From assembly GCA_037042915.1 (NCBI GenBank), contig CM073199.1:3038001-3102000 (forward strand): 64,000 nt of DNA, in the 5' to 3' direction. The notes under the pieces are model-generated. The model did not search any database. It had not been told where the DNA came from and saw only the letters and a program-made list of their open reading frames with translations. The position numbers were made by a program, and so were the translations under genes. The DNA comes from Auricularia sp. M13. Taxonomy: Eukaryota; Basidiomycota; Agaricomycetes; Auriculariales; Auriculariaceae. Of this stretch, positions 1-57,673 are shown piece by piece; within the stretch, counting starts at the first letter, position 1; every line of letters begins with the position of its first letter.

Positions 1-3000
1 ACGGCGAGCGCATCAAGCCCCAGGCCATGTACGCCGCGTTTGCCCAGGGCATGCTGCAGGCGGGCAACAAGGCCGCCGGCGGCCAGTTCCAGATCGACCC
101 CAGCTTCTTCGCCGACCCGCAGCTGGCGGCCGCGATGGAGCAGATGGGCCACGTCGCCGCCCGCCAGACAGTCAACGCGGCCGCGGTCAGCGAGCTGCAA
201 TACGAGGGCGAGCTGCAGTACGACGACGAGTACTTCTCCGAGGACGACCAGGACGACGACGGCGGGTGCCGCCGCCGTCGCCTGTGGCCGCCCAGACGAC
301 GACGACAGCGGCGAGCAAGAAGAAAAAGAAGAAAAAGAAGAAGAACAGCGCCCAGCAGCAGCAGCAGCAGCAGCCCGCCGCCGTCGCGCCGCCGCCGTCG
401 AACCCGTTGCCCGTGCCGCCGCCAGCGCCGACGCCAGCGCCCGCGCCATACGTCGCGCCAGCACGGACCGCCCCGCACGTGCGCCTCCACCGTCCTCACG
501 TGCCGCGGGCAAGCAACCCATGACCTATGCGCCCGCGCCTGCAGCCATCCCGCCCGCGACGCGGACCAAGGCGCCCGCAGGCTATCACCCGTCGCCACCG
601 TCGTCGAACGCTTCGCGCGCACCTGCGGCCAAAGCTGCACCGCCGCCGCAACCCAACAAGATATGGTCGACGAATTCGTCCGAGGAGCGGCAGCGGATCA
701 AGGAGTTCTGGCTCGGCTTGCGCGAGGACGAGCGGCGTGCTCTCGTACAAGTCGAGAAAGAGGCTGTCCTGCGCAAGATGAAAGAGCAGCAGAAGCATAG
801 TTGCTCTTGCGCCGTCTGCGGACGAAAGCGGCATGCGATCGAGGAGGAGCTCGAGGTGCTTTATGACGCCTATTACGAGGAGCTCGAGCATTATGCCAAC
901 CGTCAACAGCAGCACGAATCCTCAGGCGGCCGTATCCCTGCACCGCCGGGTCCTGGCCCGTTCCCCGGCAGCGTCGAACTCGACAAGGACGGCGCGCTCG
1001 TGCGGCACCATACTGCTCCAGCCAAGAAAGCGCCTCCTGCGAAACAGGAAAGCGAATTTGACGGCGAAGAGGAGGACGAGTATGACGATGACGACGGCTA
1101 CGACGACGAGGAAGAGGAGGAAGAGGAAGAGGAAGCCGACGACGAGGGTGAGGACGAGGACGACGATCAAGCGCCGCCGCCCAAGCCTCGCGCGCCCGCC
1201 GCCAACACACGGCCCAAGGTCAACGGCGTCAAGCACGCCCCGCCACCTAGAAAGGACTTTTTCAATTTCGGCAACAGTCTAACTGTTAACGGTGCGTGTA
1301 TCATTTATTCTATTTCGCATCTGCTCATGATAGTATACAGGTCCTGGCGGGATTCTGACTGTCGCTGATGACCTGCTCAAGAATGACGGCCAAAAGTTCC
1401 TCGAGATGATGGAGACGCTTGCCGAGCGTCGCATGCAGCGCGAGGAAGAGGCCGCGGACGCCGTCGAGATGGAGAGCGACGAGGAGGACGATGTCGAGGG
1501 TGAGGAGGACGACGAGGACGAGGAAGACGAGGAGGAGGATGAAGATGATGAGGAAGACGAGGTAATGAATTGTTTGTTCTTGCCGTTGCCTTCGCTGATG
1601 TTGCTACCAGCCTGCCATGACCGAAGAGCAGAAGACGGAGGAGGGCAAGAAGATGTTCTCCATCTTTGCCGCTCGGATGTTCGAGCAGCGCGTCCTGCAG
1701 GCCTATCGGGAAAAGGTCGCGCAGGAACGTCAGCTGCAACTTCTCCGCGAGCTCGAGGAAGAAACCAGGGCGAAGGAACGTCGCGAAGAAGAGAAGCAGA
1801 ACGCAAAACAGAAGAAAAAAGACAAGAAGAAGTGCGCTGTCGTCTGCTATTCTTTCGTGTCGCGTGGCTCATCGGATTGCAGGCAGCTCAAGGAAGCCAA
1901 GGACCAGGAGCGCGCGGCCCAGGCATCCAAGAAGGCGGCTGAGGAGGCGGCTCTCAAGGCCAAGCAGGCTGCGCAGGAAGAGGAGCAGCGCAAGAAGCGC
2001 GAGGAGGAGCGCGCCAAACGCGATGCTCAACGCCGTGCGCAGGAAGAGGAGAAGATGCGCAAGGAGGAGGAGCGTCGCAAGCGCATCGCGGCCGAGAAGG
2101 AGCGCGAAGCCGAGCGGGAGCGCCAGCGTAAGGAGCGCGAGGAGAAAGCGCGTGCCGAGCGCCGTGAGAAGGAGGAGCGCGAGCGCAAGGCTAAGGAGGA
2201 GCGCGAGGCCAAGGCCGCTGCAGAGAAGGCCGCGAGGCTTGAAGAGCAGCGGCGGCGCGAGCAGGCTGAGCGTGAGGAAAAGGAGCGGCAGGAGAAGGAG
2301 CGCAAGGCGGCCAAGGAACGCGAGGAGCGTCTCGAACGCGAGGCGCGCGCGCCTTACTGCCCACAACCGCGCACAGCAGCCGCCCATGCCCCGTGCGATG
2401 CCGACGTCGCCCCGCGCACCGACAACGCCCGCGCCTCGCAATGCGCCTTCAATGCCGAGTCCCGCGCAGCAAGGCCCGCCTGCGAACAGCCCGATCGCAG
2501 GCCCGTCAAACTTGTCGCCGCGCCCGCTCGCGATGTCGCCCGTTCAGCAGCTTCCGCACCACCACCAGCTACAGCATCCTCAGCCTCAGCAGATGCACGC
2601 CATGCCCCCGTCAATGTCGACACCGCCGCCTCCTGGCCCGATGCCGATGGGCATGGGTGGTCCGCCGCCACATGCGCCTCACCCGCAGAACCATGGACTC
2701 CCTCCCCAGTTCATTGCTGGCGGTCCAATCTCGCCTGTCATGTCTGGGCCAATGTACGGCTTCTCGCAAGGACCGCCGCCGCCGCAGATGCAGCAAGTCT
2801 TTGGCCGTCCTCCGCCGCTGCCGCAACAGATGGCACCTCCCATGCCATTGGGTCCGCCTGCGCCCATAGGCCCACCCAAGGCATTCGCCACCGCACCCGG
2901 AGCCGGTGTCCCTCGGCGTGGATCTACCGCGGACTATGGTGCCGTTCAGCGCCCGCGCGGTGCCACGATCCCCAAGGGTCCTGGCGGGTCGCGTCCCGGC

Positions 3001-3150
3001 AGCCCGGAGCAGGTGCTCGGCAGCTCCGCACTCGTCGCGGACGACGACGAGCCGATCATCCCTGCGAACTCCGGGCGGCGCGTGCCGCTCACGCCCATGT
3101 GGCGCCCGCCGTCCGCGCACCCGTTCGCCACGTCTCCGCCGCCCACTTGA
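1..3150 (+). CDS. NST1: NST1-like stress-response protein, 5' end outside window, three frame changes
   Basis: The pieces read as the fungal NST1 family (salt-stress related, proline-rich, long coiled coil; family knowledge). Seen in order: a lysine run and a (CAG)7 polyglutamine run at about 320-374; the conserved block containing [12 protein letters not shown] and a CxC-x2-C-GRKRHA cysteine motif at about 670-840; acidic stretches at about 1060-1180 and 1470-1560; a highly charged E/K/R coiled coil at about 1690-2340; a P/Q/M-rich tail ending at the stop at 3148-3150. Introns are 1292-1340, 1562-1610 and 1832-1882, and all three phases fit. The frame changes without a plausible intron near 262-268, near 480-515 and near 2345-2352, the last in a GC run. 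Either the assembly has small indels or the gene is damaged. The start lies upstream of the window. Confidence 0.72.
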
Positions 3151-3767
3151 GCTGTCGTTCTTTTTGTACGTGCCCCCCCGCGATCTCTGATCTTTTCTTA
3201 TCCATCCCTCATCCATCTCATCCCCTGAGAGTCTCGCATCTTGTTCTCTGCTCTCTTTTGCCGTCCACTCAATCACTCTTCGTATCGCTCGCTTGCTTTC
3301 CTAGTCTACCTCCCATGCAGCATGAACTACGAATACAAATGTCCGAAACTCTCAAACTCGTTGCGTGAGTCCTGAGAGTTGTGCGAGGCCACCCACTCCA
3401 CTCAGGCAAATTGTGGATGACAGAAGACATCGAGAGTAACACTAAGATTCATGCAGCATTTTGGCAACTTGTTTACATTCACAATTCCACCTCCGCTACT
3501 AAGAGCTAAGGACAAATGCCACGGTGGCACAAATAGGTCGATATAAAGTATGATATGTCTTCACGAGTGGATCAGGAACACCAGGTCAAGCCTGCTGCCC
3601 CCTTACAACGCAGCTGTCCGTAAATACGGCCTTACACGCGTGCGCTGCTACTCGTGTCACCCTCTGAGGCTCTTTCCTTCCTCGTACGACCTCCTCTGAT
3701 TACTGAGCGCGTTGGGATGGAACGAATACAATCTTCACGAAATAGATAAACAGAAGAACCCTCCTCC
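3151..3767. other. Intergenic, convergent 3' ends
   Basis: This lies between the NST1 stop and the GH18 stop. It is pyrimidine-rich just after NST1 and then plain sequence. I see no gene, repeat or RNA in it. Confidence 0.5.
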
Positions 3768-21035: not shown

Positions 21036-22019
21036 ATGCGGATTCTTGGTGTACTCGCGCTCATCCGCTCTCTGCTCACCGCTGCCTATGCTCGCGATGC
21101 CTGGGAAACCCATGATGTTGCTATATTCCCGTTGGGCGTCTGGCTCGAGAATATCGCCGTCCGTGAAAATGGGGACTTGCTTGTGACACGAGTCGACCAC
21201 GCCCAGGTTATCTCGGCCAACCCTTGGTCAGGCAAAACCAAGGTCGTCTTTGACTTCCCAGACACCACTGCCGCGCTGGGTATAGCCGAGGTTGAGTCTG
21301 AGGTGTTCGCCGTTGCAACAGGAAATTACTCCATTGCGGCAGGCACGACAGTCGGCTCGTATTCCATATGGGTCCTAGATCTCCGCCCTGGACATCTGAA
21401 AGCGCGTAAGGCGGCAGACGTCCCTCCAGCCGGTACTTTGAACGGGGTCGCGCGTCTAGACGATGGTCGGGTCCTCGTTGCCGATACGGTCTTTGGTGTC
21501 GTGTACAGTGTCGACCTGCTTACAGGAAGATTCTCTGTCGCACTATCGGGGCCGGAGTACGAGCCTGTCGCTCCTCCGGCGCCGCAATTTGCAGTCAACG
21601 GTCTCCGCGTTGTCGATTCGAAACTCTACTTCACCAACACCGGCGCAGGGACCATATCGCGCGTCCCCATCAACCCAGATGGTACTGAGGCTGGTCCTGT
21701 CGTAATGATAGCCGATAATCTCGAGCTGCCCGACGACTTCGCGGTTGGACCAGGTGGCGAGGTGTTCGTCGCACTCCACATGGCGCAGGCGGTCGATCAG
21801 CTCACCACTGAGGGCAAGAAAACACGCATTGCTGGTGGACTCGACAAGATGGACTTCGCATCTCCTACTGCCGCACAGTTTGGACGGACATCGCGTGATA
21901 CCGATACGCTTTATGTGGTGACTGGCGGCGCGCGCGACGAAGCTGGAAACGCGCTCAGCCCGGCAAAGATTCTGGCGCTTTCCAGCACCGCGCCCGCTAG
22001 GAGTCGCGAGGAGTTGTAG
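21036..22019 (+). CDS. Secreted SMP-30/gluconolactonase-like six-bladed propeller, paralogue 1
   Basis: Single exon, 327 aa. The N-terminus MRILGVLALIRSLLTAAYA looks like a signal peptide. The body carries propeller repeats: WLENIAVRENGDLLVT, GKTKVVFDFP, LNGVARLDDGRVLVAD, VNGLRVVDSKLYFTNT, LPDDFAVGPGGEVFVA and DTDTLYVVTGG. The N-G-L/V and D-D-F positions resemble the metal-binding layout of SMP-30-like lactonases, but the catalytic residues cannot be confirmed by eye. It is clearly related to, but more diverged than, the near-identical pair at 22932 and 32528. Expected location is extracellular or secretory. Possible role: lactone hydrolysis, or a structural propeller. Confidence 0.75.
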   Translation: MRILGVLALIRSLLTAAYARDAWETHDVAIFPLGVWLENIAVRENGDLLVTRVDHAQVISANPWSGKTKVVFDFPDTTAALGIAEVESEVFAVATGNYSIAAGTTVGSYSIWVLDLRPGHLKARKAADVPPAGTLNGVARLDDGRVLVADTVFGVVYSVDLLTGRFSVALSGPEYEPVAPPAPQFAVNGLRVVDSKLYFTNTGAGTISRVPINPDGTEAGPVVMIADNLELPDDFAVGPGGEVFVALHMAQAVDQLTTEGKKTRIAGGLDKMDFASPTAAQFGRTSRDTDTLYVVTGGARDEAGNALSPAKILALSSTAPARSREEL

Positions 22020-22097
22020 GATCACCTAAGCTCATAATCCAAGACTTGGATGGTTTGTTTCATTAGCACACATGTATAGGTGATGTGTGAGTAATGC

Positions 22098-22319
22098 TCA
22101 TTGATAGTAAACGAGTTGCAGCACGTTCCCATGGCAGGGATGAAAGTCGGACGCGGTGTCGATGATCCCAATGATGAGCCTGTCGAGCGCGTCGTCGGTG
22201 TATCCCGCGCCTTTAATGAACGCCTTGCGCAGGAAGAGACTGAATTCGTCGTCGCCGTAAGAGGTCAGGCGCGAGCGCAGGCCAGTGGCGTGAGGGGAAG
22301 ACATGACGGCCAACGGCAA
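22098..22319 (-). pseudogene. 5' stub of the IlvD/Edd dehydratase
   Basis: About 70 codons (FSLFLRKAFIKGAGYTDDAL, then ASDFHPCHGN) nearly identical to the start of the intact gene at 34105. Homology stops at 22111, where the sequence turns into unrelated DNA with a stop. It is the truncated end of the 1.8-kb inverted duplication and lacks all later Fe-S and catalytic positions. Confidence 0.85.
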
Positions 22320-23902
22320 AGGTCACGTTACGGATACTGTAACTAGCGGGCCGCTCGCTGTCCGGTGCAAGATTACCAGGCTGGCAGGGTCCCTGCATGT
22401 CGCTAGAAGGCGTGATGGGGATGGCCTTACTATTCGTCGCACATTGACCGTCACAGCTTAGTTCTTACACCGCCGTAAAACAGGTAAAAGGCGGCTGGCG
22501 CGTCAGGAGACTCTTGAAGAGACGTTGAGAGCAACCGTCGGACTTGGCAGAATCGGCTAGATCGGTCCGAAAGGTCAGTTTGCTCAGGCCTACAGGGATG
22601 AGTTGCTTGAGAAAAAATATACAAGAGTGTTTGGAAGCAAATCTCTGTCAGGGCGAGATCACGATGGTCACGTGATCGTGACACGATTGAGTGGGTCGGA
22701 GGTTGAAGATTTCCGTGACTCACCATTGAAAATACTTAGTCACCCGCCGCACTTTGCGCCATGAGCAGCAACAGATGGACGTCGGCATCACCGCACATCA
22801 TGGACATTTCTTAGCAAGATGATCACTAATGATATTGGTAATAGTCAGTCAGCGACGCGTCGCGTTTTGCATATAATTCTCAAACTCACCTCAATGTAGT
22901 CCTTCATTCCATCGTTCGCTTCTCAGGCCTCATGCTCTCAAATACCGTACTCGCTCTCGTCTGCTCTATAATCTCCTCCGCCTTCGCTTGGGATGGCAAA
23001 GACATTCGCGACGTAGCCGTATTCCCGCTCGGCAACTGGCTCGAGAATATCGCCGTCCGTGCGAATGGCGACCTGCTCGTGACGCGCATAGACTAAGCTC
23101 AAGTCATCTCCGTGGACCCTTTCACAGGCAGAACCAAGGTCGTCTTCGACTTCCCGGTCACCACCTCCGCGCTTGGCATCGCAGAGGTCGAGCGCGATGT
23201 CTTCGCTGTCGCGACTGGAAACTACTCCACCGCCACGGGCACGACAGCCGGCTCGTATTCCATTTGGCAACTGGACCTGCGCTCGTCCCATGCGAAGGCA
23301 CGCAAGGCGGCAGACGTCACACCGGCTGGCATCCTCAACGGAGTCACTCGTCTGGACGACGGTCGCGTCCTTGTTGCCGACTCGGTCGCCGGTGTCGTCT
23401 ATCGCGTCGACCTGCGCACGGGAGCCTTCTCGGTCGCGCTGTCCGGACCTGAGTACGAGCTCGCCCCTCCCCCCGCCTTCCAGCTCGGCGTCAACGGTCT
23501 CCGCGTCGTCAACTCGACTCTCTACTTCACCAACTCCGGCACTGGGACCATCTCACGCGTCCACATCACCTCGAACGGGAGCGCGGCCGGACCGGTTGAG
23601 CAGCTGGCTGGCGGTCTCGAGCTTCCCGACGATTTCGCAGTGGGTCCGCGCGGAGAGCTGTTCGTCACCGTCAACATCGCTCGCGAGGTCGACCGTATCA
23701 CTGCTGACGGCAAGAGAACGCGCATTGCGGGCGGAGCGAACTCGACGGACTTTGCCACTCCCACTTCGGCTCAGTTTGGACGGACGGTGCTCGACAGCCA
23801 GACGCTGTATGTGGTGACTGGCGGTGTGCGCGATGACGGTGGAAACGCGCTCAGCCCAGCAAAAGTCTTGGCCATTAACACTCGTCGCAAGTAGTTGTAG
23901 TA
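22111..23902. repeat. Inverted segmental duplication, left copy (1.8 kb)
   Basis: This matches 32519-34313 in reverse orientation almost base for base, including the 0.6-kb promoter region between propeller and dehydratase. Edges are sharp: ACGAGTTGC at 22111 and CGCAAGTAG followed by divergence at about 23902. It contains the dehydratase stub and a propeller copy with a nonsense codon. Confidence 0.88.
22932..23894 (+). pseudogene. SMP-30-like propeller, copy with nonsense codon 55
   Basis: This ORF is nearly identical to the intact gene at 32528-33490 (minus strand). It begins MLSNTVLALVCSIISSAFA (signal peptide) at 22932 and would end at 23894, 320 aa. Codon 55 at 23094-23096 is TAA where the intact copy has CAA (Gln in RIDQAQVIS), a single C-to-T change. 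The rest of the frame is open, so the loss is recent, unless it is a read error or the codon is bypassed. A shorter product from an internal ATG would lack the signal peptide and first blade. Confidence 0.85.
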
Positions 23903-32527: not shown

Positions 32528-33490
32528 CTACTTGCGACGGGTGTTAATCGCCAAGACTTTTGCTGGGCTGAGCGCGTTTCCACCGTCATCGCGCACACCG
32601 CCAGTCACCACATACAGCGTCTGGCTGTCGAGCACCGTCCGTCCAAACTGAGCCGAAGTGGGAGTGGCAAAGTCTGTCGAGTTCGCTCCGCCCGCAATGC
32701 GCGTTCTCTTGCCGTCAGCAGTGATACGGTCGACCTCGCGAGCGATGTTGACGGTGACGAACAGCTCTCCGCGCGGTCCCACTGCGAAATCGTCGGGAAG
32801 CTCGAGACCGCCAGCCAGCTGCTCGACCGGTCCGGCCGCGCTCCCGTTCGAGGTGATGTGGACGCGTGAGATGGTCCCAGTGCCGGAGTTGGTGAAGTAG
32901 AGAGTCGAGTTGACGACGCGGAGACCGTTGACGCCGAGCTGGAAGGCGGGGGGAGGGGCGAGCTCGTACTCGGGTCCGGACAGCGCGACCGAGAAGGCTC
33001 CCGTGCGCAGGTCGACGCGATAGACGACACCGGAGACCGAGTCGGCGACAAGGACGCGACCATCGTCCAGACGAGTGACTCCGTTGAGGATGCCAGCCGG
33101 TGTGACGTCTGCCGCCTTGCGTGCCTTCGCATGGGACGAGCGCAGGTCCAGTTGCCAAATGGAATACGAGCCGGCTGTCGTGCCCGTAGCTGTGGAGTAG
33201 TTTCCAGTCGCGACGGCGAAGACATCGCGCTCGACCTCTGCGATGCCAAGCGCGGAGGTGGTGACCGGGAAGTCGAAGACGACCTTGGTTCTGCCTGTGA
33301 AAGGGTTCACGGAGATGACTTGAGCTTGGTCTATGCGCGTCACGAGCAGGTCGCCATTCGCACGGACGGCGATGTTCTCGAGCCAGTTGCCGAGCGGGAA
33401 TACGGCTACGTCGCGAATGTCTTTGCCATCCCACGCGAAGGCGGAGGCGATTATAGAGCAGACGAGAGCGAGTACGGTATTTGAGAGCAT
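32528..33490 (-). CDS. Secreted SMP-30/gluconolactonase-like propeller, intact copy
   Basis: Single exon, 320 aa, starting at 33490. MLSNTVLALVCSIIASAFA is a signal peptide, with cleavage likely before WDGKD. Blade motifs: WLENIAVRANGDLLVTRID, GRTKVVFDFP, LNGVTRLDDGRVLVAD, VNGLRVVNSTLYFTNS, LPDDFAVGPRGELFVT and SQTLYVVTGG. There is one N-glycosylation-type NGS and one NST. The fold resembles SMP-30/gluconolactonase, but the active-site residues are not verified. It is divergent from the IlvD/Edd dehydratase with 614 bp between starts. The pairing would suit a lactone-to-aldonate-to-keto-acid route, though a secreted propeller and a cytosolic dehydratase would act in different places. Confidence 0.8.
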   Translation of the reverse strand: MLSNTVLALVCSIIASAFAWDGKDIRDVAVFPLGNWLENIAVRANGDLLVTRIDQAQVISVNPFTGRTKVVFDFPVTTSALGIAEVERDVFAVATGNYSTATGTTAGSYSIWQLDLRSSHAKARKAADVTPAGILNGVTRLDDGRVLVADSVSGVVYRVDLRTGAFSVALSGPEYELAPPPAFQLGVNGLRVVNSTLYFTNSGTGTISRVHITSNGSAAGPVEQLAGGLELPDDFAVGPRGELFVTVNIAREVDRITADGKRTRIAGGANSTDFATPTSAQFGRTVLDSQTLYVVTGGVRDDGGNALSPAKVLAINTRRK

Positions 33491-37548: not shown

Positions 37549-38690
37549 ATTTCTCCACTTCTGTTCATCTTCTCGGATTGACCGGTCGCGGTTCCTGTCT
37601 TGCAGGTCAAACGAGCCATATTCGACCATATTCCTGCTTCCTGCTTCACGTATGCAGCGCACGATACCGTATGGGAGTATGGATACGATGGTTAACGGAC
37701 CTAATTCCCTGTACCATTCCCAATACAGTATGTATTAATGTCGTCCCTGACGGGCGTAAGCACGCAGAGCCCGTGAGCTATCCCCGTCAACACCGTCCAC
37801 GTCCAGCGCTGCACCGTGAAGTCCTTGTAATTACCTTTCTCGGGAGCTTGAGTATTAGGCGGGGGGAGGGGTCATTTCAGCTGCGATAGTAAATCCCGTG
37901 AATGGGAGCATAAGCGTCTGAATGTTGCCCCGTCAGTCTTTCCGGATTTCTCAGGTTGCCACTTTGGCGGTGAACACGGACATAGCGGTTGTAGTCAGGC
38001 ACTGTGTACCGAAGTATGGAATTATGCTGCTGAGAGTAAGTATCAGAGCATGGGAAGCTGCGATCGTGCCTCAGAATGGGTAAAACACACCGCCGAAATC
38101 GCACCATACTGTGGGAGCTCATTTGGCTACATTAGCGTGACAAAGAAGCGTTGTGAAATGGTCACAAGCACAGTCTCTGAGGCAAGTGACAGGAAGATGA
38201 AGCTAAAACGGGCATAAAGTTGCAATTGAGAACGGGGGGTCAATGCATACACTACAAATGATGTGACAAGGGATGATAGGTCGGCAAGTAAGCTGGGCGT
38301 CGGAGTGCGGAGGCAGGAGCGCGAGGCTGAGGGTGGTGGTGATGGGGGACTACTACAAAAGACAGCATGCAAGATGCAAAGCACAGCGTAAGCGTAATAT
38401 GCACAGCGACCGAAAGTGGGGATTATAGAGAGGCTGAGGTGGCAAGGAGTGGTGTGAGGAAGGTGTTTATGTGTAGAGGGGCGGATTGGGCGGGAGCGCG
38501 ATGCCTTGGGGATAGTATAACGTAACGGATTAATCCTCAGGTGCAGGTTCAAAATGGCGACAAGCTAAGGCGACAGGGATTGGGAATGGGACGGGCCCTC
38601 TTCTGTGCTGTTACCATTCGTCTGCGCAGCGTGCGGTCTGGGACTGGTCAGCGTATCTACCGCAAGCCACAAAGCGACAACAAAGAAAAC
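37549..38690. other. Intergenic, no confident gene
   Basis: About 1.1 kb with a purine-rich minus strand. The minus-strand frame at 38127-38552 is open for 141 codons but has a low-complexity S/P/L composition and no homologue I recognise. Nothing else seen. Confidence 0.4.
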
Positions 38691-40123
38691 TCACGCAACG
38701 GTGTCTAAGAACGCGCGAATGTCCTTCGCAAGCAGTCGCTGGACGTGCGTCGTGGGATGCACATCGTCGACCCACAACCCGCCTGAGGCGCACTTAGCGT
38801 CAAAAACGGCCGCGGAGCCCGCCACGCCCGCATCCTCACCTCCAAGGCCCGCGTTAGCCATGCCATGTCGTGCGGGGTTCTCGATGAGCCGCGTGAACAG
38901 CGCGTGCGCGTCGTACAGCATCACCGTGCACTCCGGCTCGTGCCGCTTGCGGAAGCGCTTCACGGCCTCGACGAGCCCGCGGTTCCACGCCTGCACGCGC
39001 TCCGCCAGGTTCTCCACCATCATGCGTCCTGGGCGTGGCGCACACGTGAGCACACAGCAGCAACGCGGAGCGAAGTTGAATAGGGCAATCCGGCGGCTGA
39101 TTAGGCTGGCGGGCGGCATGACGCAGCGTCGAAGGAAAGGCTAATGGAAGATGGGCCGAAGCGGATGACTTACCGACGGGCGCCCTGTCGACGGGCATAA
39201 TCGTCATGAAAATGAACGTCCGCGCGCCTGCGTGATAGAGCTCTTCCTGCAGCTCGAAGAGTGTTTCCATGCTCTTGTTGACGTTGAATAACCCCCGCGT
39301 TCTAGCAGCGTCGAGTGAGTGAGTGAAATCGACGAGGTACAGGTGGAGGCGACGAACCCGCAGTCGTTCGTGCCGACGAACGTCCCTGCGAAAAGTCAGG
39401 ACAAATGCTGAGACGGCGGGGCGGACGGAACACACAAAATATCGAATCGGAGCCCGTCCAGAGCGTGCCGTCGGCCGGCTCGAGCGCGGTCGTGTGGCGC
39501 AGAAACTCGTTGCGCACCTGGGCCATGAGCGAAGTCACGGTGTCGCCGCCGCGTGCGTATACGTAAGCCAACGCATCTGCGGAGCGCAGCTCGCGCACGA
39601 GCGAGCCAATCCAGTTCTCGCCCTCGTTGTATGTCTCGCCGGGGTAGGGCACGCCGAGCGGCTCGGCGATGCTCGGCTGGGGGTATGCCGGGCTGGCACG
39701 GTATCCTACGCTGGAGAGCGAATCGCCGCTGCGCCGTGTTTGTTAGTTTGCGTCAAGTGGATAGCGGGGATCACAGTGGGCACGCAACGCCTTGCAACGA
39801 CTCGCAACGACGCTCAGGGCGGGATGCTGCGGCGAAGATTGCGAGTGCTGTTGCGGGCAAGTGCTACGACTGCCTTCGCTACATCGTTCGCAGCACCGCA
39901 AACGTCTGGGCGCTTGCGGGCTTCGTCGCGACAACGCGTTGCGAGCTTTTGGCGAGGTGCTCCGACTCGCGGGCTCGCAAAGGCGTTGTTACGGTGTTGC
40001 GAGTGTTGCAAGGCGTTGCGAGCACTGTGATGAGCACTGATGTTAATTCGGGACTCACAAAACAAAATGGTGACGGATCTTCTCAAAGCCCATCCAGCTT
40101 GGGCCCGTGTTGTAGAATGACAT
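38691..40123 (-). CDS. SGNH/GDSL esterase (carbohydrate-esterase-like), copy A, full length
   Basis: The first exon (40123-40059) encodes MSFYNTGPSWMGFEKIRHHF, and splicing over 40058-39729 gives VFGDSLSSVGYR, the block-I GDSL motif with the nucleophile Ser. Then come VPYPGETYNEGENWIGSL, TFVGTNDCG (block III G-x-N-D), FNVNKSMETLFELQEELYHA, GARTFIFMTIMPVDRAP, and the C-terminal WVDDVHPTTHVQRLLAKDI (D-x-x-H catalytic pair), with the TGA at 38691-38693. Similar fungal CE16-type enzymes deacetylate xylan-derived oligosaccharides. No obvious signal peptide is visible in the proposed start. The first intron is 330 nt because it holds an inverted-repeat insertion that copy B lacks. Confidence 0.8.
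39770..40031. mobile_element. MITE-like insertion in esterase intron, 262 bp
   Basis: Ends ATCACAGTG and CACTGTGAT. The inverted repeat continues inward: CGCAACGCCTTGCAACGACT on the left versus CGCAACGCCTTGCAACACTC in the reverse complement of the right end. The interior is rich in TTGCAACG/CGCAACG words. It is absent from the same intron in copy B, which is 46 nt. An exact target duplication is not evident. Confidence 0.75.
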
Positions 40124-40215
40124 CTGCAAGCGTTATCAGCGGTCATCGGCCTCGTTTTGTGGAGCAAGACGAACGCCGAATTGGGATTTCGGCTGGCGGA
40201 GGCGTTGTTGAGAGC

Positions 40216-41056
40216 TCATGTGACAACGGCGATGGGCAGGGGGATACGTACACCGGATACATCGGGTTTGGGTGGGTCCGGGAGCTTGTCGGGGATAGGC
40301 TCTTTCGACGGGCTCTTGACGCGCGCGCGGCGGGAGGCGTCATGGACCTGGGCATACTGGGCTGGGTCGAGCATGCGCAGCGTCTCGACGAGCGGGAGGA
40401 GGCCGACGACGCGCAGGAGGGCGCCGAGAGCGTGAACGGCGTGGGCCTTGACTTGGTCTGTGGCACCTGACTTGACGGCGAGCACGAGCGAGTGTGCAAG
40501 CATGCGGGCGAATATGTCTACTGGCGCGAACGGCGTCGCGGCGACGCAGCGCTGGACGAATTCCAGCGTGCCGGTGGCAATGGCTGGGTTGCGGGATTGT
40601 AGGGCCTGGGTGAGGCCCTCGGTGAGCGCGCTAACGGTCGTCTGCGGGAGTCAGGATAAAATTATAATAATAATAATTGCCTACCGTCGCAAAGAGAGCG
40701 TCGAGAGTGTCTGATATCTGGGCCGTGAGCCTGGGGTCGCCGCGAGCAAAACCCTGAAGCAACGAGGGCATGACCGCGCCGCGGTAGCGTGCAAAGCGGT
40801 TGTGTTCGATGCGGGTGGTGAGCGCGACAAGCATGGTACAGGCAAGCACGGCGACGTCGACGTTGGCGTCCTGGACGCGGGCGGCGAGGGCGTCGAGCAG
40901 AGTGAGGATGTCCTCAGTGTCCTTGATGCGCTCCTGACTCTGGACGACGCGCAGCACGTTCTGGAGCAGTAGCAGCCGCTCCTCGGGCGACTCGTCGTCA
41001 ATGCGGTAGAAGCGCTGGGGGACGATGGACAGGATGTCGACCGACGACGGCGCCAT
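40216..41056 (-). CDS. Stand-alone TOG2-like domain protein (XMAP215/Stu2 family), copy A
   Basis: Exons 41056-40685 and 40641-40216 (intron 43 nt) give 265 aa. The sequence follows the second TOG array of XMAP215/Stu2/Alp14 proteins: VDILSIVPQRFYRIDDESPE, then ERIKDTEDILTLLDALAARV, VQDANVDVAVLACTMLVAL, RYRGAVMPSLLQGF, ISDTLDALFATTTVSAL, NPAIATGTLEFVQRCV and AVHALGALLRVVGLLPLVE, ending in a short basic tail (RARVKSPSKEPIPDK). Full-length family members are far larger, with several TOGs and a coiled coil; here only one TOG is encoded, from its own ATG to a stop. A single TOG could still bind tubulin, but alone it would not be expected to act as a polymerase. Confidence 0.72.
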
Positions 41057-41108
41057 CGCGCAGCGCGTTGACGGCGATGAGGAGAGACGGAAACGCGGTC
41101 GGGCCTTG

Positions 41109-42169
41109 CCGCTGCGCGACGGACGAGCGTCTCTGGGAGTGCGGCTGTATGGGAAATGAAAAGGTTGGACTCTCGTCTCGTCCAAGATCGTCGCCCGATG
41201 AGGCACGTCACTGTGCTCTAAACGCGGCACTCAAACAACGCGGCGGACATTAGCGTTATGTCCTGACATAAATTCTCGTAGGTACGCAAGGGTTCGTGGG
41301 GTTGGATTAAAAATGGCAGAGTAGCATTCCGCCCGAAGGCCTATGTACAAAATGTATCTACGCGGCGGCGGCGAGCAGAGTCGCAGAGTCGCAGAACAGC
41401 ATGGCGGCGTGGGGCAATGGGGACAAGACACGAACGACCTGCGTCCAAATCCTCAGCCTTTATATACCCTCTCAGGGCGCTTACTGCAGCTGCGGCGGTA
41501 CAACCGGGTGACGCGCGAGGACGCTCCCTGCTGATGGTTGCCCAAGTCCGGAACCCGCAGAAACCATGTTCCCGCTGCACACTCCAGTGTTCCCTGACAC
41601 CCCTGTAATGTCTCACGAGCTGCCAGAGCGACTCTCAGTGCCGGGTGCGGCCTCTGGCCTAGTCTCCGTCCCGCACTCTGCGTTGTGATTCTGGCGCCAC
41701 AAAATTCTTCCACCCGCTTGGTTGCCGCACAGCCAGTCATTTTCTCACAGCAACGCCTCACATGAGTCATGCCTGCATACATTCCGACATTTTCTCACGG
41801 CAGCCTTTCTCACTATTCCGGCATGCAAGTGCTTTTGGTAGGGGACAACCGCTGTATTCAATGCTGTCTAGTACTTGTCTATGTACACGCTGGGATGCCG
41901 AAATACAGCACAGGGAGAGAAAACGTCGAGCGCAGCGGGAACGACAGAGTCGCTCTCAGCGTGGAAATCAGTCGTGCCGGCAGGAGCGCCAGAGCCGCTC
42001 TCAGCGCCGCGGGATCCCAGTTGCCTCGGAGACGAGCCCCCGCGACGCAATTTGTTAGCCGAAATGAATAGCGCGCGCAACCGACCGTCGCACAGTCTAT
42101 GCGCCCTCCGCCATCGGAGTCGTCCGACGCGAGCAGCGCGATTCTGAGACGCGCGGTCAGACGACACTC
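41109..42169. other. Intergenic between TOG gene and repeat arrays
   Basis: 41109-41240 is the 5' flank of the TOG gene, unrelated to the flank of copy B. 41240-42169 shows no gene. GAGTCGCAGA-type short direct repeats occur near 41380-41400, and CAGAGTCGCTCTCAGCG / CAGAGCCGCTCTCAGCG lie about 43 bp apart at about 41945-42010. Confidence 0.4.
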
Positions 42170-47513: not shown

Positions 47514-48761
47514 TCAATTCGGTGAGCAAACATTTTCGCAAAAATCTTCTCGGATCGCAACAAAAACGATACGCACATGTTGCCAATGACGCGCGGCATG
47601 CACCCGCGTCGTGGAATTTCGATTGGTTGCGCCGGGCGGCGGGAATGCGCGTCGCGGTGCGCGCCGACCCGGACTTGCAACCGCGCGTCGTTCCGCACAC
47701 ACCACCCGCCCGCACTTGGCGTCAAAAACGGCCGCGGAGCCCGCCACGCCCGCATCCTCACCTCCAAGGCCCGCGTTAGCCATGCCATGTCGTGCGGGGT
47801 TCTCGATGAGCCGCGTGAACAGCGCGTGCGCGTCGTACAGCATCACCGTGCACTCGGGCTCGTGCCGCTTGCGGAAGCGCTTCACGGCCTCGACGAGCCC
47901 GCGGTTCCACGCCTGCACGCGCTCCGCCAGGTTCTCCACCATCATGCGTCCTGGGCGTGGCGCACACGTGAGCACACAGCAGCAACGCGGAGAGAGGTTG
48001 AATAGGGCAATCCGGCGGCTGATTAGGCTGGCGGGCGGCATGACGCAGCGTCGAAGGAAAGGCTAATGGAAGATGGGCCGAAGCGGTCGACTTACCGACG
48101 GGCGCCCTGTCGACTGGCATAATCGTCATGAAAATGAACGTGCGCGCGCCTGCGTGATAGAGCTCTTCCTGCAGCTCGAAGAGTGTTTCCATGCTCTTGT
48201 TGACGTTGAATAACCCCCGCGTTCTAGCAGCGTCGAGTGAGTGAGTGAAATCGACGAGGTACAGGTGGAGGCGACAAACCCGCAGTCGTTTGTGCCAACG
48301 AACGTCCCTGCGAAAAGTCAGGACAAATGCTGAGGCGGCGGGGCGGACGGAACACACAGAATATCGAATCGGAGCCCGTCCAGAGCGTGCCGTCGGCCGG
48401 CTCGAGCGCGGTCGTGTGCCGCAGAAACTCGTTGCGCACCTGGGCCATGAGCGAAGTCACGGTGTCGCCGCCGCGTGCGTATACGTAAGCCAACGCATCT
48501 GCGGAGCGCAGCTCGCGCACGAGCGAGCCAATCCAGTTCTCGCCCTCGTTGTATGTCTCGCCGGGGTAGGGCACGCCGAGTGGCTCGGCGATGCTCGGTT
48601 GGGGGTATGCCGGGCTGGCACGGTATCCTACGCTGGAGAGCGAATCGCCGCTGCGTCGTGTGAGTGGACGGGGGCCAGTTTTCATCGGAAACTCACAAAA
48701 CAAAATGGTGACGGATCTTCTCAAAGCCCATCCAGCTTGGGCCCGTGTTGTAGAATGACAT
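47514..48761 (-). pseudogene. SGNH/GDSL esterase, copy B, C-terminus replaced
   Basis: Same start (48761) and exons as copy A, with a short first intron (48651-48696, 46 nt). It keeps VFGDSLSSVGYR and GTNDCG. Homology to copy A ends at about 47708, inside AAVFDAKC. The frame then runs through unrelated sequence to a stop at 47514. The D-x-x-H segment (WVDDVHPTTH in copy A) is therefore missing, and the product should be inactive as an esterase. Confidence 0.78.
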
Positions 48762-49760
48762 CTGCAAGCGTTATCAGCGGTCATCGGCCTCGTTTTGTGG
48801 AGCAAGACGAACGCCGAATTGGGATTTCGGCTGGCGGAGGCGTTGTTGAGAGCTCATGTGACAACGGCGATGGGCAGGGGGATACGTACACCGGATACAT
48901 CGGGTTTGGGTGGGTCCGGGAGCTTGTCGGGGATAGGCTCTTTCGACGGGCTCTTGACGCGCGCGCGGCGGGAGGCGTCATGGACCTGGGCATACTGGGC
49001 TGGGTCGAGCATGCGCAGCGTCTCGACGAGCGGGAGGAGGCCGACGACGCGCAGGAGGGCGCCGAGAGCGTGAACGGCGTGGGCCTTGACTTGGTCTGTG
49101 GCACCTGACTTGACGGCGAGCACGAGCGAGTGTGCAAGCATGCGGGCGAATATGTCTACTGGCGCGAACGGCGTCGCGGCGACGCAGCGCTGGACGAATT
49201 CCAGCGTGCCGGTGGCAATGGCTGGGTTGCGGGATTGTAGGGCCTGGGTGAGGCCCTCGGTGAGCGCGCTAACGGTCGTCTGCGGGAGTGAGGCTGATAG
49301 ATAAAATTGTAATTATTATTATAATTATTGCCTACCGTCGCAAAGAGAGCGTCGAGAGTGTCTGATATCTGGGCCGTGAGCCTGGGGTCGCCGCGAGCAA
49401 AACCCTGAAGCAACGAGGGCATGACCGCGCCGCGGTAGCGTGCAAAGCGGTTGTGTTCGATGCGGGTGGTGAGCGCGACAAGCATGGTACAGGCAAGCAC
49501 GGCGACGTCGACGTTGGCGTCCTGGACGCGGGCGGCGAGGGCGTCGAGCAGAGTGAGGATGTCCTCAGTGTCCTTGATGCGCTCCTGACTCTGGACGACG
49601 CGCAGCACGTTCTGGAGCAGTAGCAGCCGCTCCTCGGGCGACTCGTCGTCAATGCGGTAGAAGCGCTGGGGGACGATGGACAGGATGTCGACCGACGACG
49701 GCGCCATCGCGCAGCGCGTTGACGGCGATGAGGAGAGAAGGAAACGCGGTCGGCCCTTGC
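47708..49760. repeat. Direct segmental duplication, copy B
   Basis: Near-identical to 38798-41108 minus the 262-bp insertion. Edges are sharp: GTCAAAAACGGCCGCGG at about 47720 on one side, and divergence after GAAACGCGGTCGG at about 49755 on the other. Confidence 0.9.
48854..49707 (-). CDS. Stand-alone TOG2-like domain protein, copy B
   Basis: Exons 49707-49336 and 49279-48854 encode 265 aa with the same motifs as copy A (VDILSIVPQRFYR, RYRGAVMPSLLQGF, ISDTLDALFAT, GTLEFVQRCV). I saw no change that breaks the frame. The intron is 56 nt versus 43 nt in copy A because the AT-rich TAA/TTA run differs. The upstream region is unrelated to that of copy A, so expression of the two may differ. Confidence 0.72.
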
Positions 49761-50857
49761 CGTACTTCATGCTCGACGCCGACTCCATGGTGTCGCCGTC
49801 GCCGAGGCTACTAAGGCCGCCACATCGCCGCTGGCTGCGTCGGCTTCGTCGTTGTCGCTGGTGGTGGAGAGCTCGCTACTGGCCGCTCGCGCAAGCTATC
49901 CAGCAACCCCAAATTCAGGCCGATGCCCTGCTGAAGCTGACCCAACGCCGACCTGCACGATGGCGACGTCTACATGATCATAGAGCAGTGCTCAAATCAC
50001 CAGTCTGGGTAGCCCTTTGAGTGGACGAGCTCGCGCGGCCCACGTCCAGGACTGTATCATCGGCGTCTGTGGCAAGTCGTCGTCCACGCAGGCATCGCCA
50101 GGCTCCGGCATCGATGTCGCCTGGGCTAAATGGCTTGAAGATGGGTGTCTTTGGACCTCAAGACGAGGCCATCGATGGTATATACCGCGTACAAGGTATG
50201 ACGTCGTTGATCCCCAGTTACACATTGAAAGTTTACAGTTTGCAGTTGGTAACCAGTGACGCCATTGACATGCAAATCATTTCAATGTGGTCGACCGCGG
50301 TTTCTTCGTCGGCCCGGGAATTCAGAGAAGAAGTACTACATCTTTTACACTCTGTGAGTCCTAGCCCATAATCTCTCTTATAATCATGGCAGGATCACAA
50401 TCAAACAAAGATTCGCTGGTGCAAGATATGGGTATAAAGCACAGTTGTGAGTTCTATTCATCAAAGCCAGAGCACTCATCATGGGGACTCATCACTACTA
50501 GACCAAGGGAAAGCTTCCAATCAGAACGACTTTGGTCATGCAAACCCTGTAGGTGAAGTGAAGGCATCATCAAGGAGCAAGTACACATTCAGCTCCTAGT
50601 TGTTGCATGCTGAATACTAGTGTCTATGCATTGCCTTCCTCTTCCTGGATCATGGGCCAGTGCAATGGCAGAATGCATTAACGAACACCCGCCTCATCAA
50701 GGAAAAATGCAGGGAGAAGGGGAGTTAACATCAAAATATCATAAAACAGAGTAGATTACACTAGTTCTTTCGATTTGCCTTCGTGAAAACTGTCAGTGCA
50801 TGAGTAGTCACGTGTCAACGCGCCTCGGCCACATCCGCATCTTGACCAGCGACCACA
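49761..50857. other. Intergenic, no confident gene
   Basis: Short plus-strand frames (for example 50021-50371, S/R/P-rich then FGPQDEAIDGIYRVQG) could be an exon remnant, but no complete gene can be built. The last 450 bp are AT-richer and lead to the F-box gene. Confidence 0.35.
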
Positions 50858-57158: not shown

Positions 57159-57673
57159 GCGTAAAGCAAGGGGGCACCGGAAGCAAAATGACGGAACCGG
57201 GTCGGTTTACGCTGGGAAGCTGGCGAGGCCGACCTACCTACCTACCGTGGGAAGATATTCCCATTTTGGGAAGGCCTTCCGCGGAGCCGGAAGCAAAATA
57301 GTTCCGACTTCAGTAAAGAAACTCCTTGTGATCAATGTAAGATAGGTTGAAAAGCTTAAAAGGCACTCTAAACTCATATACTTTGTTGCAATACAACATC
57401 TTTCATTAGTTTTCAGTGTACTCTACCCACTCCAGCTCATGGAAAGGGCCTGGATGCGGTTCAGACAGCCGGGACTGACGTATAGACCTGTTTTGAGGCT
57501 CTCTTTCAGGAAAAATAGTGCAGAAAGGTGCATTTTGATGAAAAAATCCGTCCAGAGCGGCTCGGCAAGCCGAGTATATGGGACTCCAGTTACGTTCGCA
57601 GCCCTCCGGGCTGCGACCTACCTACCTAGGTTTGGTTCCGGGATTTTGATCCCGGTGCCCCCTTGGCGTAAAG
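57159..57673. mobile_element. Complete hAT-type MITE, 499 bp, 8-bp target duplication
   Basis: The element is 57167-57665, flanked on both sides by GCGTAAAG (57159-57166 and 57666-57673). The ends are CAAGGGGGCACCGG and CCGGTGCCCCCTTG, a perfect 14-bp inverted repeat that continues imperfectly to about 32 bp (CAAAAT, CGGAACC). The CAAGG start fits the YARNG rule for hAT ends. The interior has two ACCTACCTACC words and several short hairpins, and no transposase. Confidence 0.85.

Follow-up and report, generated by a model that had tools for sequence, protein, structure and literature searches.

P-like elements are known mostly in animals. The P transposase of Drosophila is described as binding internal sites that lie at unequal distances from the two element ends and as producing 8-bp duplications at its target (PMC7776569), and a P transposase structure exists (PDB entry 6P5A, named in PMC8230255). 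For fungi, PMC3164196 reports as new for Dikarya the rust P elements P-1_MLP, P-2_MLP, P-N1_MLP and P-N2_MLP (Repbase), which have 8-bp target-site duplications (TSDs) and include non-autonomous members.

The element described here is a MITE from Auricularia sp. M13. It lies in a 64,000-nucleotide stretch of genomic DNA, the whole of which is called the window below. We read this MITE as a non-autonomous cut-and-paste DNA transposon belonging to a fungal P-element-like group, and put the probability of that reading at roughly 0.75. Its features are as follows.

57159..57166, no strand: left target-site duplication GCGTAAAG, perfect 8 bp
57167..57665, + strand: non-autonomous element (MITE), 499 bp, subfamily A, 16 genome copies
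57167..57198, + strand: left terminal inverted repeat, 14 bp perfect (57167-57180), 32 bp at 88%
57232..57246, + strand: left subterminal word ACCTACCTACCTACC, putative transposase binding site, at element positions 66-80, a position shared with the 5873-bp partner
57247..57613, no strand: non-coding interior; outside the ends, no blastn similarity to the 5873-bp partner
57596..57616, no strand: hairpin TCGCAGCCC-TCC-GGGCTGCGA with a 9-bp perfect stem, adjoining the right word
57616..57626, + strand: right subterminal word ACCTACCTACC, 40-50 from the right end, in direct orientation to the left word
57634..57665, - strand: right terminal inverted repeat, 14 bp perfect (57652-57665), 32 bp at 88%
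57666..57673, no strand: right target-site duplication GCGTAAAG, perfect 8 bp

The initial annotation had placed a complete 499-bp element between perfect 8-bp duplications at 57159..57673, and these coordinates proved exact. At the ends of the element stands the perfect 14-bp inverted repeat CAAGGGGGCACCGG, whose imperfect continuation reaches 32 nt at 88% complementarity. The open reading frames of at least 30 aa that touch the element either run across an element boundary into flanking DNA (a 140-aa frame entering on the left, a 130-aa frame leaving on the right, and shorter ones) or are below 50 aa; the MITE therefore has no coding capacity of its own, in agreement with the earlier claim. 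It is short, non-coding, bounded by terminal inverted repeats, multi-copy, near-uniform in length and flanked by TSDs, which are the features of the MITE class. The paired internal words that had been remarked on are real, the same 15-mer occurring in direct orientation at both 57230-57244 and 57614-57628, and they turn out to be a regular subterminal feature across the group. The internal hairpin is likewise real, with its 9-bp perfect stem at 57596-57616, and is also present in one subfamily B copy. It is absent from the 5873-bp partner, and was for that reason rejected as a group-wide feature. Folding of the whole 499-bp element gave a z-score of -4.56, a value equaled by 0 of 100 shuffles, much of the listed pairing being the terminal repeat itself.

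Two groups of similar frames, both recognized by eye, lie elsewhere in the window. The same set of open reading frames occurs twice, at 38605-41230 and 47611-49788, about 9 kb apart, and is probably a segmental duplication. Three similar frames of 260-327 aa occupy 21036-23894 and 32528-33490; two are tandem neighbors, and the third lies about 9 kb away in inverted orientation.

The exact 14-mer tip occurs 33 times in the 52.1-Mb genome, against 0 occurrences for the reversed control, a count beyond chance; all 33 sit in MITE copies, in one partial copy (C2:5166071) or in a 5873-bp element. A DNA search of the same genome (52.1 Mb, 14 contigs) with the window element likewise gave 33 matches, namely 16 copies (the window's included), one partial copy, the two ends of the large element and 14 short left-end matches. 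Of six short matches inspected, five could be assigned to a second MITE family and the sixth to a third. Thirteen of the 16 copies are 499 bp long, two are 498 bp and one is 453 bp. A perfect 8-bp duplication, different in sequence at each site, flanks 16 of 16 copies; the tips left no more than one base of play at the ends, and of nine offsets the best was taken. Two subfamilies can be told apart, about 15% from one another: subfamily A comprises eight copies 0.4-1.4% from their own consensus together with the more diverged L019, L020 and L021, and subfamily B comprises five copies 0.4-0.8% from theirs. One pair, L012 on contig C10 and L013 on contig C9, is identical over 499 bp and has differing TSDs.

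The joined flanks of the 16 insertion sites were also searched against the genome. Element-free paralogous sites were found for four copies (L014, L015, L019 and L021), each in repeats, with the junction crossed and the 8 bp present singly; the best matches had 91-100% identity, that for L021 spanning 83 of 100 bases. The same search returned no empty site for the other 12. Element-free paralogues with a single 8 bp therefore demonstrate insertion directly. The suggestion that the insertion is recent thus gains support from the 16 perfect TSDs, the two identical copies and the four sites with empty paralogues, as does the suggestion of a distinct multi-copy family from the 16 copies in two subfamilies. 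As to the surroundings of individual copies, L015 (C10:1444380-1444880) is nested inside the right end of a family 6-like element, element-free copies of which occur elsewhere, and a hAT-domain fragment at C9:3287486-3287608 ends about 200 bp before L013.

The initial annotation had predicted further copies with their own TSDs and full-length hAT elements with the same ends. The copies were found, as was a full-length element with these ends; the superfamily predicted for that element did not hold. Only one large element was found to have these tips; it is 5873 bp long, lies on contig C11 (L011) and has the TSD GGTTGATC on both sides. Its first ~81 bp are 88% and its last 51 bp 96% identical to the MITE, with the words at the same positions. 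Because the alignment is limited to these ends, we rejected the idea that the MITE is a simple internal deletion of the 5873-bp copy. The large element has open frames of 411, 694 and 206 codons on the strand opposite to the left-to-right reading of the MITE; these frames keep their order in paralogues and therefore behave as exons of one gene, the C-terminal exon being rich in cysteine and histidine (by eye). Paralogues of the product occupy 14 further substantial loci and one weak locus elsewhere in the genome.

A pattern built from the ends found, CAAGGGG-N10-CAAAMT, had 129 genome matches, against 2 for its reversed control. The inspection for ends covered 10 of the 15 transposase loci (L011, L032, L034-L040 and L042), and CAAGGG-type ends were found at all 10. 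One such end lies at L034, L035, L036, L037, L038 and L039, and the gene points away from the right-type end in L011, L032, L035, L036, L037, L038 and L039. Both ends are present at four loci, three of them with a perfect 8-bp TSD:

L011: 5873 bp, TSD GGTTGATC
L032: 6027 bp, TSD GGGATACT
L040: 4977 bp, terminal repeats of ~130 bp, TSD GCACGGCC
L042: ends as in L040, delimited against a sister copy, no matching TSD

L040 (C11:25590) and L041 (C11:2423191) are identical over the 3987 bases compared, and L042 (C9:1185212) is 99.5% alike. The ~130-bp terminal repeats of the L040-type element contrast with the short ones of its relatives.

The 5873-bp element has its ACCTACCTACC words at the same distances from both ends as the window MITE: in each, an ACCTACC array begins at position 66 counted from the left tip, and a second array, directly oriented to the first, occupies 40-50 counted from the right tip. 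Six further families have their own, mostly 4-bp-periodic words at nearly the same places:

Family 2: 7 elements, CCAT words
Family 3: 4 elements, the 6027-bp one included, CCAT words
Family 4: 4 elements, CATA words
Family 5: 3 elements, CCCT words
Family 6: 2 elements, C-rich words
Family 7: 2 elements, C-rich words

Elements of these other families were delimited on condition that at least 6 of the 8 TSD bases matched, and their TSD counts are therefore selected: 21 of the 22 elements delimited in families 2-7 have a perfect 8-bp TSD, as do 23 of all 25 other delimited elements, the exceptions being L055 (7/8) and L042 (none). One word is missing or changed in L054, L063 and L078, and a search for paired ends at L076 and L077 found none. 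A candidate large family 2 element at C8:1172717-1178950 was rejected, since it is a MITE split by a retrotransposon; in this locus (L053, C8:1172680-1178980) a family 2 MITE with the TSD ACGCGCGG is interrupted by a Copia-like element (by eye) with a 1543-codon frame. A 505-bp family 5 MITE (CCCT words, TSD CCTTATAC) occupies L011:66-570 (C11:1931065-1931569), about 460 bp before the 5873-bp element, and its right end is closely like the end beside the transposase locus L035.

The periodicity of the words is apparent from self-matching. The right box has a mean self-match of 0.68 at shift 4 versus 0.34-0.40 at other shifts, and the left box 0.54 versus 0.29-0.40. The match between left and right words was assessed by permuting the pairings among families, in intervals chosen once the words were already known and with L078, a family 4 relative whose left word is changed, left out. 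In a first test with five families, 2 of 120 pairings, the observed one included, scored at least as high as observed, one of them above it. A second test added two families, slightly widened the intervals and used a different family 5 copy; here no pairing exceeded the observed score and 4 of 5040, counting the observed one, equaled it, for seven families that are not independent, because families 2 and 3 have a near-identical word and families 5-7 are all C-rich. Three nearby pairs of control intervals gave 1610-3170 of 5040. In five of the seven rows a family's own words gave the best match; families 3 and 7 matched a neighbor family better.

Since copies and intervals had been chosen, the test was repeated with 40 random choices of copy in each of three interval sets (120 in all). 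Between 1 and 15 of the 5040 pairings then reached the observed score, with medians of 3, 4 and 4; the observed pairing was the maximum, possibly tied, in 40 of 120 repeats (8, 13 and 19 of 40 per interval set). A family's own words came out best in 4 to 6 of the 7 rows, and the three control pairs gave 1078-2656. We infer that the subterminal words are most likely transposase binding sites.

In the mechanism that we propose, which is modeled on Drosophila P, the transposase of the 5873-bp element, or of a close relative, would bind the family-specific words (66-80 from the left end, 40-50 from the right) and pair the two ends; the CAAGG tips would serve as cleavage points, and the element would be inserted at a staggered 8-bp target. 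Because the MITE has kept both tips and both words, it could be mobilized in trans by the partner transposase. The unequal distances of the words (33 bp at the left and 7 bp at the right, both counted inward from the 32-bp repeat) might allow the enzyme to tell left from right. The words repeated within the element ends look like a family-specific address label for the partner's enzyme.

A broader generalization can be advanced tentatively, at rather less than even odds: the elements may represent a large fungal group, P-like or a separate DDE lineage, in which specificity resides in a modular, mostly 4-bp-periodic word set as a direct repeat at fixed, unequal distances from the ends. The words at both ends would change together, co-evolving with the transposase as lock and key and sorting non-autonomous copies to their own transposase. 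Several transposase lineages occur together in this one fungal genome, along with seven or more short non-autonomous families built on the same end plan. Their words, matched between left and right, make a natural series for testing by what means a transposase distinguishes its own ends from closely related ones, and how a non-autonomous element comes to retain or switch its helper.

The 634-aa partner piece had no Pfam match at E 1 and no match in the PDB. The conserved blocks in the alignment of its paralogous loci are LM-x-D-E, S/T-D-G, D-x-K-H and G-T-D-R-L-E-x-x-F. The P-like RNase H family PF21787 (N-terminal) was matched by 5 of 10 members of the alignment covering the first block, with a best E of 0.009 that is below the Pfam cut-off, and by 1 of 13 members (E 0.23) of a second alignment. 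Searched against the whole genome, PF21787 gave three candidates, all three in this transposase family and none above the cut-off, and it is the only family that recurs among the transposase members. The order D, D, D-x-x-H, E is present in two open reading frames (L038 and L040) and fits the P signature as given in PMC8230255. Their D1-D2 spacings are 119 and 134, versus 73 in Drosophila P, the value of 134 possibly including an unspliced intron; D-x-x-H and E are 178 and 209 residues apart, versus 192 in fly P, with no profile match for the insertion domain. The P superfamily makes target duplications of 8 bp (or 7 bp); perfect 8-bp TSDs flank 16 of 16 window-family copies and, as noted, 23 of the 25 further elements that were delimited.

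Other searches returned nothing at these loci. The P-like RNase H C-terminal family PF21789, a 35-position profile, had four weak genome matches, none of them at transposase loci. No THAP domain was matched in the partner pieces or relatives, and PMC7776569 gives THAP domains as absent from fungi. PDB searches with the 634-aa piece and two family profiles found no relative, despite the existing P transposase structure, and the target duplications do not clearly resemble the P target motif GTCCGGAC (motif as given in PMC3276498). Searches by tblastn for transposase relatives in viral and prokaryote contigs found none (22 and 23 pattern stretches). On the weak domain signal and the order of the motifs, P-superfamily membership of the partner transposase is probable, and we call the enzyme P-like.

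The absence of any Pfam family above the cut-off and of a PDB relative by profile, the D1-D2 spacing that differs from P, and the word-pair end plan could instead point to a new DDE transposase superfamily whose likeness to P, hAT and KDZ goes no further than general features of RNase H. We regard this as unlikely, if worth keeping in view, because PF21787 alone recurs (5 of 10 members) and because the 8-bp TSD, the D-x-x-H block and the motif order all resemble P.

The hAT-like label of the initial annotation implies a hAT-superfamily MITE moved in trans by a hAT transposase. The CAAGG tips of the window MITE fit the general form of hAT ends, an 8-bp TSD is compatible with that superfamily, and genes belonging to it exist in this genome. 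However, none of the 30 genome matches to the hAT domain (PF05699) lies at the 15 transposase loci, no hAT domain was found in the partner's open reading frame pieces or relatives, and the 33 exact tips are without exception accounted for by MITE copies, the one partial copy or the 5873-bp element. The target pattern nTnnnnAn, which PMC10368747 gives for Hermes and PMC3276498 cites from earlier work on hobo, occurs in 1 of 32 TSDs, where ~2 would be expected by chance. Subterminal binding sites are also described for Hermes, a hAT element (PMC10368747), and the words alone therefore do not decide the superfamily. After the PF05699 and target-pattern tests we dropped hAT membership, which we now consider improbable, and the label is unsupported. 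Membership of the KDZ group (Kyakuja-Dileera-Zisupton), abundant in this genome with 162 PF18758 matches and including Zisupton, which makes 8-bp TSDs according to PMC12730594, is very improbable and was dropped after the profile search, given that none of the matches listed of the 162 lies at the 15 transposase loci and that the partner's pieces and relatives gave no match. The abundance of KDZ, a group linked to Basidiomycota, fits a fungal host, as do one weak hydrophobin match with an internal stop (E 5.1e-4) and our reading of the genes.

The elements can be set beside systems already described. Compared by published description, the rust-fungus P elements resemble those reported here in having a fungal host, autonomous and non-autonomous members and 8-bp TSDs. 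Drosophila P and the zebrafish P-like/THAP9 element, as presented in PMC7776569 and PMC8230255, share with the present elements the 8-bp TSD, internal sites at unequal distances from the ends and the order D, D, D-x-x-H, insertion, E; the terminal repeats are similar in length, 31 bp in the fly element and 32 bp, imperfect, here. The Auricularia elements differ from both in having no THAP match, a longer D1-D2 spacing (119 and 134 versus 73), family-specific and mostly 4-bp-periodic words, lengths of 5-6 kb and a C-terminal exon rich in cysteine and histidine, the last judged by eye. hAT MITEs such as mar in Drosophila (PMC3517528) are similar in their 8-bp TSDs, terminal repeats and lack of coding capacity, but their transposase and target pattern differ from those of the present elements. 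Among the titles and abstract openings that searches of the open-access literature on fungal P elements, cut-and-paste transposons, MITEs and subterminal motifs returned, none mentions such an end plan. P-like non-autonomous elements are already known; the periodic, family-specific word at their ends would be a new variation.
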